A stretch of 38,035 nucleotides of DNA, from the NCBI GenBank assembly GCA_945890745.1, contig CAMDCW010000005.1, positions 1 through 38,035 of the forward strand, written 5' to 3'. The number at the start of each line of letters is the position of its first letter. Positions within the stretch are counted from its first letter, which is position 1. Source of the stretch: Phycisphaera mikurensis NBRC 102666 (GTDB lineage Bacteria > Planctomycetota > Phycisphaerae > Phycisphaerales > SM1A02). The notes below the pieces were generated by a model that made no database searches, was not told the origin of the DNA, and worked only from the letters and a program-made list of their open reading frames with translations. Shown here in pieces: positions 16,074 to 23,908 of the stretch. The translations under genes and the position numbers were made by a program.

Positions 16074-16185
16074 CCGCCCCTGTACCCCCCGTCCAGACCG
16101 TGTGCTGCCAGAACGGCAGATTCCCGCCACGGCGGCACCGAATGGGACAGGAAATCGGCCCATTGCACCCCAAATTGGCGCCCCA

Positions 16186-16209
16186 CGGACTGGCACGCGG
16201 GTTGCTTTA
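16186..16209 (+). promoter_or_regulatory. Predicted sigma-54 (RpoN) -24/-12 promoter of dnaK
   Basis: cggaC TGGCACG cggg TTGCT tta: matches the YTGGCACG-N4-TTGCW consensus with exact GG-N10-GC spacing (GG 16192-16193, GC 16204-16205), about 75 bp upstream of the dnaK ATG. Confidence 0.7.
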
Positions 16210-16281
16210 TCACCATGGCGCGGGCATCCCGCCCCCTCCCCCACCAAAGAACCATCCTCACCGAAAGGGAATCAACTCACT

Positions 16282-18198
16282 ATGTCAACCAAATCAATCA
16301 TCATCGGAATCGATCTCGGCACCACGAACAGCGTGGTCGCCGTCATGGAAGGCTCCCAGCCCAAGGTCATCATCAACTCCGTCGGTCAGCGCACCACCCC
16401 CTCGGTGGTCGGCTTCACCGAGAAGGGCGAACGGCTCGTCGGCCAGACCGCCAAGCACCAGCAGATCACCAACCCCAGCAACACCGTCTTCAGCATCAAG
16501 CGCTTCATGGGTCGTCGCCACAGTGAGGTAGGCCACGAAGAGAAGTTGGTGCCCTACACCATCAAGGGTGCACCGGACGAAATGGTGAAGGTTGGCATCC
16601 GCGGCAAGGATTACTCCCCGCCGGAAATCTCCGCCATGATCTTGGCCGACCTCAAGCGTCAGGCCGAAGAGTTCCTTGGCGAAACCGTCACCCGCGCGGT
16701 CATCACGGTGCCCGCGTACTTCAACGACGCGCAACGCCAAGCCACCAAGGACGCTGGCGAAGTTGCCGGCCTCAAAGTCGAGCGCATCATCAACGAGCCA
16801 ACGGCCGCGGCACTCGCCTACGGTCTTGAGAAGAAGACCAATGCGAAGATCGCTGTCTTCGACCTCGGCGGCGGTACGTTCGACGTGTCCATCCTGGACA
16901 TTTCCGACGGCGTGTTCGAAGTGCTCTCCACGAACGGTGACACTCACCTCGGCGGCGATGACTTTGACCAGAAGCTCATCGACTTCTTGGCCGAAGACTT
17001 CCGCAAGAAGGAAGGCATTGATGTCCGCAAGGATCCAATGGCTCTGCAGCGCTTGAAGGAAGCTGCTGAGAAGGCAAAGATTGAACTCTCCACTCAGGTG
17101 GAGACCACGGTCAACTTGCCGTTCATCACCGCGGACCAGAACGGTCCGAAGCACTTGCAAGTCACGCTGACACGCGCCAAGTTTGAAGAACTCTGCAAGG
17201 ATCTCTTCGAACGCCTTGCTGCGCCGTGCGAGAAGGCGCTTGCTGATGCCAAGCTCAAGCCGTCCGACGTGCAAGAGATCGTCATGGTTGGTGGTTCGAT
17301 TCGCATCCCCAAGGTGCAGGAACTCGCCAAGAAGATCTTCCACACTGACAACCTTGACAAGAGCATCAATCCCGACGAAGTGGTTGCCATCGGCGCAGCC
17401 ATCCAGGGCGGCGTCCTCATGGGCGATGTGAAGAACGTGGTGCTCCTTGATGTCACCCCGCTCTCACTCGGCGTGGAAACGCTCGGCGGCGTGATGACCA
17501 AGCTCATCGAGCGCAACACCACCATCCCAACTTCGAAGAAGGAAATCTTCTCTACTGCGCAGGACAATCAGAACGCTGTGACGATCGTGGTGCTGCAGGG
17601 CGAGCGCCAGATGGCTGCCGACAATCGCGTGCTGGGACGCTTCGACCTGCAAGGCATTGCAGCCGCTCCGCGCGGTGTGCCGCAAGTGGAAGTGGAATTC
17701 TCGCTGGACGCCAACGGCATCCTGAATGTCATGGCCACTGAGAAGGCCACTGGCAAGAAGCAGGAAATCAAGATCACCGGCTCGAGCGGTATCTCCAAGG
17801 ACGAAGTGGAGCGCATGCGCAAGGATGCCGAGGATCACGCCACCGCCGACAAGGCGCGTCGCGAGCTCGTCGACACCAAGAATCGTGCGGAGCAGGTGGC
17901 GTACCAGGTCAAGAAGCAGCTTGAGGAGATGGGCGCGAAGGTCCCAGCCGAAAGCCGCAACAAGATTGAAAGTGCGCTCAGCAACCTTGAGGACAAGCTG
18001 AAGGGCGACGATCAAGCCGCCATCGAAGCTGCCCTGAACAACCTGATGAACGCCTCGGGCGAACTGCAGCAAGCTGCGGGTGCCGCGGGCGCGGGCGAAG
18101 CTGGAGCAGCTGGCGGATCCGCTGGATCATCCGAAGGCGGCCCCAAGAAGGACGACGTCATCGACGCCGAGTACGAAGTAACCGACGAGAAGAAGTAA
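16282..18198 (+). CDS. dnaK: Molecular chaperone DnaK (Hsp70)
   Basis: [63 protein letters not shown]-terminal ...[14 protein letters not shown]. Confidence 0.98.
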
Positions 18199-20470: not shown

Positions 20471-20566
20471 CCGGGCGCGCTTGTTCATTCGTCGAGTGCT
20501 GACTGACACGGACTTGCACCTGAAGGTTCCGCCACGAACCGCCGCTTGACGCGGCAAGGATTGAAC

Positions 20567-23500
20567 GTGGCAGACGCCGATACCAAGCATGACGGACTCG
20601 AACCGCACGACGGGGATTCCAACGGAGCCAACTCCGAGGGACATCACGCCGCGCACGAGCATGAACACGACACCGAAGAGGAAAGCGCGTCGATCGACTC
20701 GGCCGCCTTCGCATCACTCGAGGCGCTCGAGAGCGGCGAGGATGCCCCCATCCTCCCGGTCCGGGCCATCGATGACGAGGAATCCAATGGCGCCGAAGCG
20801 TCAGCCGATGACTCAGATAACTCAGACGATGAGAGTGAAGACGAGTCCGATGATGAGTCTGAAGACGAGTCCGATGACGATTCTGATGACGACTCCGAAG
20901 ACTCGGAAACCTCCGCTTCCGACGAGGATGGTGACGCATCCGCCGATACCGGCGAAGATGGCACCAAGCGCCGCCGCCGTCGCGGTGGGCGCGGTCGCAA
21001 GAAGGAAACTCAGCAGACTGCGCCAGCCGGTTCCAAGCGCCGCCAGCTGATCGTGGTGAACGACGTCCCGGGTGAAGAGTGCCGCATCGCCGTCCTTGAA
21101 GATGGACGCCTCGAGCAGATCTTTGCCGAGCGCGAGAACACCGCCACCCACGTCGGCAACATCTATAAGGGCCGCGTTATGAACGTGGAGCCCGCCATCC
21201 AGGCGGCGTTCATCGACTTCGGCGAAGGCCAGAACGGCTTCCTGCACATCAGCGATCTGCACCCGCAGTACTTCCCCGGCGAAGAGCGCACCGAGCGCGT
21301 CGGCAAGAAGATTGCGCGCCGCGATCGTCCACCGATTCAGGAAGCGCTCAAGCGCGGACAGGAAGTCATCGTGCAGGTCCTCAAGGAGGGCATCGGCACC
21401 AAGGGCCCAACCCTGACGAGTTACGTATCGATTCCCGGCCGACTGTTGGTGATGATGCCGCAGATGGACAAGGTTGGCGTCAGCCGCAAGGTGGAAGACG
21501 AAGATCAGCGTCGCGAAATGCGCCGCATCTTGGACAGCCTTGAACTGCCAACGGGCTTCGGATTCATTCTGCGCACTGCCGGTTTCGATCGCACCAAGAC
21601 TGAACTGCAGCGCGACGCTATTTACCTGCAGCGTCTGTGGCAGGCCATGGAGCGACGCATGAGCTCCACCGGCGCGCCCTGCGCTCTGTACACGGAAAGC
21701 GATCTGCTGGTTCGCACCATCCGCGACATCGCCGACGACAGCGTTGACGCCATCGTGGTGGACAGCGAAAGCGCCTTCACGCGTGCCAAGACCTTCTTGC
21801 AAGTGGTGGCGCCGATCAACGCGCCGCGGCTTCTGTACTACGACCGCATTGCGCCAGTCTTCGAAGCGTTCGGCGTGGAACGGCAAATTGAGCAGATTCA
21901 CGCGCGCGAAGTGCCGCTGCCTTCGGGCGGAGCACTGGTCATTGACCAGACCGAAGCGATGGTGGCGATCGATGTGAACAGTGGCAAGAGCCGCAGTGCA
22001 CGCGATAGTGAAACCAACGCGTTCAACACGAACCGTGAAGCCGTTGATGAAATCGCCCGTCAGTTGCGCCTGCGCGACCTGGGCGGAATCATCGTCAACG
22101 ACTTGATCGACATGCGCATGTCCAAGCACCGGCGCGAGATTGAAGCGCGCCTGGAAAGCAATCTGCGCCGCGATCGTGCCAAGACCACCACGCTGGAGAT
22201 CTCTGACTTCGGCATGATTGAGATGACCCGCCAGCGCATGCGCCCGGGTCTTCACAAGGCGCACTTCATGGACTGCCCGCACTGTCACGGGGCCGGCGAA
22301 GTCCGCGTACCCGACGCAGTGGCTGCAGACATTCTGCGCCGCATCGCCCTGTTCTTCTGCCACGACCGCATTGCGCGCGTCGAGGTGGTGTGCAGCGCGC
22401 GCGTTGCTGGCGTGTTCCTGAGTACGCGCCGCAATGCGCTTCATGAACTTGAAGAGCGCTCCGACAAGCGTGTTGATATTCGCATCAGCGAAGCCTTCGC
22501 CATGGATCGCGTTGAGGTGTATGCCTACGACGACCGCGGCGCGGATATTGAGCTTGATCGTCTGCCGCGCGTTCCGGTTCCACGTCTGGCAGATCTGCCG
22601 GACAGCGTGGTCATTTCTGATGACGACGATGGTGATGATGACGTGGTGGATGGAGGCGGACACCGCCGCCGTCGCCGTCGTCGTAAGCCTGCGCCAGCTG
22701 ACGCAACGGCTATGGCACTCGCTGGTGGATTTGACGATCTGCCAACCCCAACTGCCAACGAACCGAGCGTTTCTGAACTGATTCGTCGCTCGGACGCTGA
22801 GCGCGAAACGCGCCGTCGCGAAGATGACGTGCGTAAGCGTGAAGAAGATGCGCGCCGCCGCGAAGAAGACGCGCGCAAGCGTGAAGAAGACGCCCGACTG
22901 CGGCAAGAAGCCGCTCGTGAACGTCAAGAAGCTGCACGCGAACGCCAAGAAGCTGCAGCAGCGCGAGCCGTTGAACGCGCCGCTGCTCGCGAAGCACGCG
23001 ATGCTGAACGAGCAACGCGCGTGGAAGCTGGACTTGATGTTGCTGACTTGGACGAAGCCGACGCTGCAGATGCCGCCGAAGAAGCTGCACTTGCACTTGA
23101 GCGCGAGCAATCCGGTGGTAATCGCGGACAAGGTAATCGCGGCGAAGGCGATGGCGAGGCCGGTCGCGGCCGGCGTCGACGTCGGCGTCGTGGTCGCGGA
23201 CGCGGTGGCGATCGTGATGACGAAGCACCAGCCAACGGAAACGGTGGCGGCAATCGTCAAGGCGGACGCAATGCTCCGCGCAACGATGCAGCTGGTGCGC
23301 CAGCCGGCGCGCGCGCTGAAGGTGATGCAGGCGGCGAAGGCTCCGAAGGCGGCGAAGCTGCTGAAGGAGCGCCACGTGGTGATGGCGGCGAAGGCAATGA
23401 AGGCGGAGAGGACGGTCCGCGCAAGCGTCGTCGTCGACGTCGTCGCGGCGGTCGTGGACGCGGTGGCGATCGGGGCGAAGGCGCAGAGGGCGCGGAGGGC

Positions 23501-23908
23501 GCAGAGGGCGCACCTTCGGGCGACGGCAGTCCAGCCGCAGCAGGTGATGCGCCGGAATCTCGCCCTCGAAGCCAACCATTGGGAGTACCTCCGGGATCAG
23601 GCGGCGGACGTGCCCCGCGTGAACCACGTACTCCACGCGAACCACGTGAGCCACGCGGCGACCGTGGCCCGCGTGAACCACGCGAACCGCGCGGCGACCG
23701 TGGCCCGCGTGAACCGCGCGAACCGCGTGGCGACCGCGCCCCGCGCAATGACGCACCAGCAGCTCCGGCACAACCGCCGGCTGCACCTGCAGCAAACCCC
23801 GCCACGGATACGCCACTCGGCGCCGCCAAGAAGACCATTCGAAGCGTCACCGGTTGGATGCGACGACTGAAGACCACTCCTGGTAGTGGCAGTCGCGACG
23901 ATCGCTAA
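20567..23908 (+). CDS. Ribonuclease E/G family protein with acidic N-terminal extension and Arg/Gly/Pro-rich C-terminal tail
   Basis: S1 domain (GNIYKGRVMNVEPAIQAAFIDFGEGQNGFLHISDL), AMVAIDVNSGKSR, GGIIVNDLIDMR, MDCPHCHGAGEV. GTG start at 20567 preceded by AAGGA; ORF-track TTG start at 20546 considered less likely. Confidence 0.93.
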   Translation: MADADTKHDGLEPHDGDSNGANSEGHHAAHEHEHDTEEESASIDSAAFASLEALESGEDAPILPVRAIDDEESNGAEASADDSDNSDDESEDESDDESEDESDDDSDDDSEDSETSASDEDGDASADTGEDGTKRRRRRGGRGRKKETQQTAPAGSKRRQLIVVNDVPGEECRIAVLEDGRLEQIFAERENTATHVGNIYKGRVMNVEPAIQAAFIDFGEGQNGFLHISDLHPQYFPGEERTERVGKKIARRDRPPIQEALKRGQEVIVQVLKEGIGTKGPTLTSYVSIPGRLLVMMPQMDKVGVSRKVEDEDQRREMRRILDSLELPTGFGFILRTAGFDRTKTELQRDAIYLQRLWQAMERRMSSTGAPCALYTESDLLVRTIRDIADDSVDAIVVDSESAFTRAKTFLQVVAPINAPRLLYYDRIAPVFEAFGVERQIEQIHAREVPLPSGGALVIDQTEAMVAIDVNSGKSRSARDSETNAFNTNREAVDEIARQLRLRDLGGIIVNDLIDMRMSKHRREIEARLESNLRRDRAKTTTLEISDFGMIEMTRQRMRPGLHKAHFMDCPHCHGAGEVRVPDAVAADILRRIALFFCHDRIARVEVVCSARVAGVFLSTRRNALHELEERSDKRVDIRISEAFAMDRVEVYAYDDRGADIELDRLPRVPVPRLADLPDSVVISDDDDGDDDVVDGGGHRRRRRRRKPAPADATAMALAGGFDDLPTPTANEPSVSELIRRSDAERETRRREDDVRKREEDARRREEDARKREEDARLRQEAARERQEAARERQEAAAARAVERAAAREARDAERATRVEAGLDVADLDEADAADAAEEAALALEREQSGGNRGQGNRGEGDGEAGRGRRRRRRRGRGRGGDRDDEAPANGNGGGNRQGGRNAPRNDAAGAPAGARAEGDAGGEGSEGGEAAEGAPRGDGGEGNEGGEDGPRKRRRRRRRGGRGRGGDRGEGAEGAEGAEGAPSGDGSPAAAGDAPESRPRSQPLGVPPGSGGGRAPREPRTPREPREPRGDRGPREPREPRGDRGPREPREPRGDRAPRNDAPAAPAQPPAAPAANPATDTPLGAAKKTIRSVTGWMRRLKTTPGSGSRDDR

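Follow-up and report, generated by a model that had tools for sequence, protein, structure and literature searches.

In this study, we found that the dnaK gene in a 38,035-nucleotide stretch of DNA from Phycisphaera mikurensis NBRC 102666 (contig CAMDCW010000005.1; hereafter the window, meaning the whole stretch analysed) lies behind an exact sigma-54 promoter core with an inverted repeat further upstream (Table 1). As judged from sequence comparison, this is very probably a genuine enhancer-dependent sigma-54 promoter of dnaK, belonging to a sigma-54 heat-shock/chaperone regulon that is either an ancestral or a very widespread trait of Planctomycetota. An initial annotation of the same DNA had proposed sigma-54 control of dnaK, covering only the -24/-12 element of this one gene and missing the upstream inverted repeat; its reading is now supported by the presence of rpoN, by conservation, and by the lack of CIRCE and HrcA.

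Table 1. Coordinates of the features upstream of dnaK in the window, and of the receiver genes heading groES/groEL operons.
Feature	Position	Strand	Remark
Inverted repeat CTGCCAGAACGGCAG	16105-16119	.	predicted to act as enhancer (upstream activating site); the core lies 85 bp downstream
CACCGAATGGGACAG	16136-16150	.	may be a second, weaker half-site of the enhancer; follows the first by 31 bp
24-mer cggaCTGGCACGcgggTTGCTtta	16186-16209	+	matches the sigma-54 consensus, same strand as dnaK
Sigma-54 promoter core CTGGCACGCGGGTTGCT	16190-16206	+	exact consensus; kept in 49/55 genomes of the order
Predicted transcription start	16217	+	inferred from the -12 position (C16205 set as -12)
Predicted 5' leader, 65 nt	16217-16281	+	sequence and inference
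Ribosome-binding site GAAAGGG in predicted leader	16263-16269	+	sequence
dnaK (Hsp70), 638 aa	16282-18198	+	ATG at 16282; Pfam HSP70 E 1.8e-255
Receiver gene heading groES/groEL operon	L082:554-1138		same genome as the window, contig C66
Receiver gene heading groES/groEL operon	L230:2645-3178
Receiver gene heading groES/groEL operon	L125:1060-1461
Receiver gene heading groES/groEL operon	L379:1610-1975
Receiver genes heading groES/groEL operons			L377, L380, L220

The 24-mer had been described as fitting the full sigma-54 consensus with GG-N10-GC spacing, and this proved exact: the -24 GG (16192-16193) and the -12 GC (16204-16205) are separated by 10 bases with zero mismatches, and the TGGCAC-N5-TTGCW context (16191-16206) is likewise free of mismatches. 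Setting C16205 as -12 returns the same predicted start (~16217) and 5'UTR (~65 nt) as had been given before. The site upstream of dnaK is the sole zero-mismatch TGGCACG-N4-TTGCW site of the window. With two mismatches allowed, the window contains 16 motif matches against 11.4 expected, an unremarkable count close to chance; thus, the significance of the site rests on its conservation and location. The window also contains, downstream of dnaK and of a gene for a PEP-utilising enzyme (PTS enzyme I-like), a 1120-residue RNase E/G-family ORF (20546-23908) that is extended considerably at both its N- and its C-terminal end. L225 (Phycisphaera mikurensis NBRC 102666 isolate MsE-30jul19-209) encodes a DnaK 99.8% identical to that of the window, and one relative carries a second, divergent dnaK-like gene (G053:C48:28186-29964; 49% identity).

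Across 55 genomes of the same order, TGGCAY-N5-TTGC was found within 200 bp of the dnaK start codon in 49, whereas dinucleotide-preserving shuffles of the regions upstream of dnaK gave a mean of 0.03 and a maximum of 2, and the antisense strand gave 0. The distance from core to start codon ranges from 28 to 178 nt, which means that the motif is kept while the surrounding sequence is not. Conservation in relatives had been proposed as a check on the promoter, and the motif is indeed retained in close as well as distant relatives with diverging flanks. In a genus-level alignment, the promoter core and the upstream palindrome form the two clearly conserved islands. The strict core is missing in six of the 55 relatives; some of them have degenerate forms (G015, G025, G040, G054, and G058), and in G041 no core, not even a degenerate one, was found upstream of dnaK. 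In L017, L019, L020, and L024 (from G003, G005, G007, and G028), the core lies only 28-29 nt before the dnaK start codon, which places the predicted transcript start on the ATG or right beside it and would make the dnaK mRNA leaderless or near-leaderless.

The palindrome, a 15-bp DNA site with the consensus CTGCCAGnCTGGCAG, looks like the enhancer of a sigma-54 activator (bEBP). When the region 40-200 bp upstream of the promoter core was scanned in 54 genomes, a palindrome with a score of at least 10/14 was present in 52 of the 54 dnaK upstream regions, with ~12% expected from the shuffle null. It is invariant in the genus alignment, and it is also found at two groEL promoters of the same genome. 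In G018, G023, and G030, two of which are single-bEBP genomes, the promoter core is present and no clear palindrome was seen within 130 bp. The palindrome-core distances cluster at 64, 73-74, 83-86, 94-98, 105-108, and 115 bp, with outliers at 167 and 177 bp, and follow a helical period of ~10.4 bp (resultant R = 0.80). Thus, the site shifts by whole, not half, helix turns, which is the pattern needed for a sigma-54 activator to act by DNA looping. A second enhancer half-site beside the palindrome is proposed tentatively; over the order, a site at +30/+31 is weakly enriched (z = 3.5 and 2.0), with the right arm present in 17/50.

The gene rpoN, whose presence in the genome the initial annotation had wished to see confirmed, occurs once in the genome that carries the window (G000:C69), and all three Sigma54 Pfam domains (AID, core-binding, and DNA-binding) were found in its product. 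The same genome encodes one genuine bEBP, an NtrC-type response regulator (G000:C185, L070:1069-2376) with the Pfam domains REC, Sigma54_activat AAA+ with GAFTGA, and a C-terminal HTH_8 (Fis-type HTH). Orthologues of this protein are present in all 41 genera of the order that were examined, with 59-100% identity, and almost no variation is seen in its receiver Asp/Thr/Lys, its GAFTGA loop, or its recognition helix (GIGERTLYRK). The helix is also kept in most of the best matches in further planctomycete families, those carrying the composite enhancer-promoter site described below. The 2.7 Mb, 250-contig assembly is 90% complete, so a further bEBP could be missing, against which the relatives that are 97-98% complete speak; the protein is the sole bEBP above 200 bits in seven further genomes (G003, G005, G008, G014, G018, G030, and G031; 86-98% complete). 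Since promoter opening by the sigma-54 holoenzyme depends on a bEBP, the NtrC-type protein must serve any sigma-54 promoter in the single-bEBP genomes. No kinase gene beside the bEBP gene was recognised among the neighbouring ORFs of eight neighbourhoods inspected by eye.

From these sequence features, we infer that the conserved bEBP would bind the CTGCCAGnCTGGCAG palindrome. Alternatively, the palindrome could be bound by a different factor, for example a repressor, with the conserved bEBP acting elsewhere, and the genomes with many bEBPs indeed allow no assignment of an activator from sequence alone. This alternative seems very unlikely, because a position 64-115 bp upstream together with helical phasing is what bEBP enhancers typically show, whereas repressor sites of this sort are unusual, most of them overlapping the promoter, and because several genomes possess only this one bEBP while sigma-54 needs one.

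The link between the predicted enhancer, the promoter, and chaperone genes extends beyond the order. A composite pattern (GCCAN4GGCAG, 62-92 bases, TGGCAYN5TTGC), searched blind to genes in 392 planctomycete genomes, was found at 59 places in 56 genomes, and its reversed control at 1. Fifty-seven of the 59 places precede dnaK, groES/groEL operons, clp, or hsp20. As assigned by tblastn, the downstream genes are groEL (23), dnaK (14), Clp ATPase genes (8; ClpB- or ClpC-like), groES-groEL (5), and Hsp20 genes (4); three further places start with a single-domain receiver, with groEL following in all three, and the other two showed no recognised chaperone or protease gene directly downstream. In G037, an unannotated 487-residue ORF with no Pfam match (L147:2-1462, minus strand) starts 38 nt past an exact enhancer-plus-promoter composite and is a candidate for a new regulon member.

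A scan with the same composite pattern, directed at a set of 84,980 species genomes, gave at least 80 loci. Among the matches listed (80 loci), 30 are from Planctomycetota, including Phycisphaerales, Planctomycetia, Kuenenia, and Scalindua, and 28 of these 30 precede dnaK, groEL, hsp20, clp, or a receiver-groES operon, whereas none of the 50 listed loci of other phyla precedes a chaperone gene (Fisher p = 1.5e-19, a value that is only nominal since related species are not independent). In Scalindua rubra, one of the two planctomycete exceptions, groES is located further down, behind a receiver gene. The association of enhancer and promoter with chaperone genes is clearly specific to Planctomycetota.

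Within the genome that carries the window, the strict sigma-54 motif occurs 10 times and the palindrome nine times, and only three same-strand pairs of palindrome and promoter lie within 200 bp of each other, namely those of dnaK, a receiver-groES-groEL operon, and groEL2. An enhancer score of at least 12 was likewise obtained at only these three among 59 relaxed sigma-54 matches. The palindrome count by itself is not enriched (9 sites vs 12 in the reversed control); the information lies solely in its pairing with the promoter. The other sigma-54-like matches of this genome, mostly intragenic and without palindrome, were rejected as regulon members. TGGCAYN5TTGC occurs 60 times and the reversed pattern 12 times, most copies being intragenic, and this excess may be a codon-usage effect. 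This genome has three groEL paralogues (L083:1168-2865, L083:3347-4963, and L082:1817-3448), two of them in tandem on C104; the palindrome of the first C104 groEL (the groEL2 site) is 188 bp from its promoter, outside the usual range.

If the site, in an intergenic region rich in G+C, matched the sigma-54 consensus by chance, this would agree with the frequent two-mismatch versions in the window and with the intragenic position of most other sigma-54-like matches in the genome. Set against the conservation in 49/55 genomes where 0.03 is expected, the phased enhancer, and the phylum-wide chaperone link, this explanation is refuted for practical purposes, and we give it a negligible probability.

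In distant planctomycetes as well, the sigma-54 groES/groEL operon is headed by a gene for a single-domain receiver (Table 1). The operon receiver is canonical in L125, L379, and Scalindua (L220); it looks degenerate in the genome that carries the window and in L230, where the acidic pair and the Lys are lost and the Pfam match is marginal or none. The receiver is possibly a feedback regulator. In the operons of two planctomycete families, L377:615-1076 and L379:1278-1610 encode a small protein without a Pfam family between the receiver and the chaperonin genes.

Known bacterial heat-shock circuits mainly supply a sigma factor (sigma-32) or release a repressor (HrcA, HspR, or CtsR). HrcA was found in 0 of the 61 genomes of the order, with the positive controls detected, and neither CIRCE (TTAGCACTC-N9-GAGTGCTAA) nor HAIR (CTTGAGT-N7-ACTCAAG) exceeded the shuffled background upstream of dnaK, in line with the earlier remark that no CIRCE element is visible at this gene. 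Matches to the RpoH model reached at best ~167 bits in all 61 genomes against a cut-off of 323, and a distant RpoH-like factor is possible. Neither HrcA nor RpoH is supported as a regulator. A second sigma-70-family factor, scoring ~150 bits (below cut-off) with the RpoH model, is kept across the order and could have a role in heat shock as well. In R. baltica, heat shock induces dnaK, groEL, cpn10, clpB, and hsp20, no change of the rpoH and rpoN transcripts was observed on heat, and the authors inferred a different cascade (PMC2754498). Induction of chaperones without a change in rpoH or rpoN transcripts fits control via an activator protein, that is, a bEBP activated after translation.

It is also conceivable that the sigma-54 promoter and the palindrome are real and answer another signal, such as a nutrient, envelope, or cell-cycle state, with heat induction arising from a second, sigma-70-family promoter. 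Such a scenario would suit the conserved second sigma-70-family protein and the location of the bEBP gene near genes identified by eye as cell-envelope genes, namely an LptF/LptG-like permease gene on its own contig and Ddl- and MurB-like genes in some relatives. We consider it unlikely, since the regulon consists almost purely of chaperones, Clp ATPases, and Hsp20 (57/59), which corresponds to the heat-shock stimulon of R. baltica, and since the best sigma-70/sigma-32 site in the 300 bp upstream of dnaK has four mismatches, such scans being weak for this phylum.

With moderate confidence, we further suggest that the core heat-shock response of the whole phylum Planctomycetota (dnaK, groESL, clp, and hsp20) would run through one dedicated NtrC-type activator and sigma-54, that sigma-54 would be a near-dedicated chaperone factor in small genomes, and that the receiver of the groESL operon would feed back on the activator. 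In the mechanism proposed for the dnaK promoter, RNA polymerase with sigma-54 would wait as a closed complex at 16190-16206, while the NtrC-family response regulator (REC-AAA+-Fis-type HTH, GAFTGA loop) would bind the CTGCCAGnCTGGCAG palindrome at 16105-16119. Upon a proteotoxic or thermal signal, presumably heat or misfolded protein, the receiver would probably be phosphorylated by a kinase and the activator would assemble into a ring; looped DNA would bring the activator to sigma-54, and ATP hydrolysis would open the promoter. The helical phasing would follow from this looping. The same switch would drive the receiver-groES-groEL1 operon and groEL2 in the genome that carries the window, and dnaK, groESL, clp, and hsp20 elsewhere in the phylum, holding the place that sigma-32 or HrcA/CIRCE has in other bacteria.

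If this is true, transcription from the sigma-54 dnaK promoter would be very low without the activator, so that basal DnaK supply (barring a second promoter) and heat induction would both depend on a single AAA+ protein, and the activator is predicted to be essential or strongly needed under stress. The model would also help to explain heat-shock regulation in planctomycetes, given the unresponsiveness of the R. baltica rpoH and rpoN transcripts to heat. For testing, the finding points to one particular protein, one 15-bp DNA site, and a set of promoters.

Parts of this switch, namely a sigma-54 chaperone operon and an NtrC-like heat-shock regulator, are already of a known kind, whereas novelty appears to lie in the enhancer with its helical phasing, in the one conserved activator, in the logic of the regulon, and in the phylum restriction; an earlier account in the literature on Pirellula activators is possible. 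Carrera-Reyna, Cruz-Flores and Merino (2025; PMC12316311) used promoter matrices to predict, class by class, sigma-54 regulons at the level of gene families. For Planctomycetota, they predicted an enrichment of sigma-54 promoters in the DnaK, GroEL, GroES, GrpE, DnaJ, and IbpA families, chiefly in Planctomycetia and less so in Phycisphaerae. In the portions of their paper available to us, activator-promoter specificity is described as not available for all organisms. Unlike the present analysis, those portions name no enhancer site or activator for the chaperone genes.

The proposed switch resembles the HsfBA phosphorelay of Myxococcus xanthus, in which the NtrC-like response regulator HsfA directly activates the heat-shock gene lonD (Ueki and Inouye 2002, cited in PMC9109919). 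The targets of HsfA, however, are a single Lon protease gene together with secondary-metabolite genes, not core chaperones, in a different phylum, and HsfA has a kinase partner, HsfB, whereas no such partner is known for the planctomycete bEBP. Another likeness is seen in Bradyrhizobium japonicum, whose groESL3, under NifA, is one specialised copy tied to nitrogen fixation; the main chaperones of B. japonicum follow other controls, unlike the planctomycete set. This chaperonin operon is listed among RpoN-dependent genes (PMC4842269). Finally, the HrcA/CIRCE and sigma-32 systems are similar in that dnaK and groESL are controlled together, but they act by repression or by sigma-factor supply, whereas the planctomycete switch would act by activation from an enhancer.
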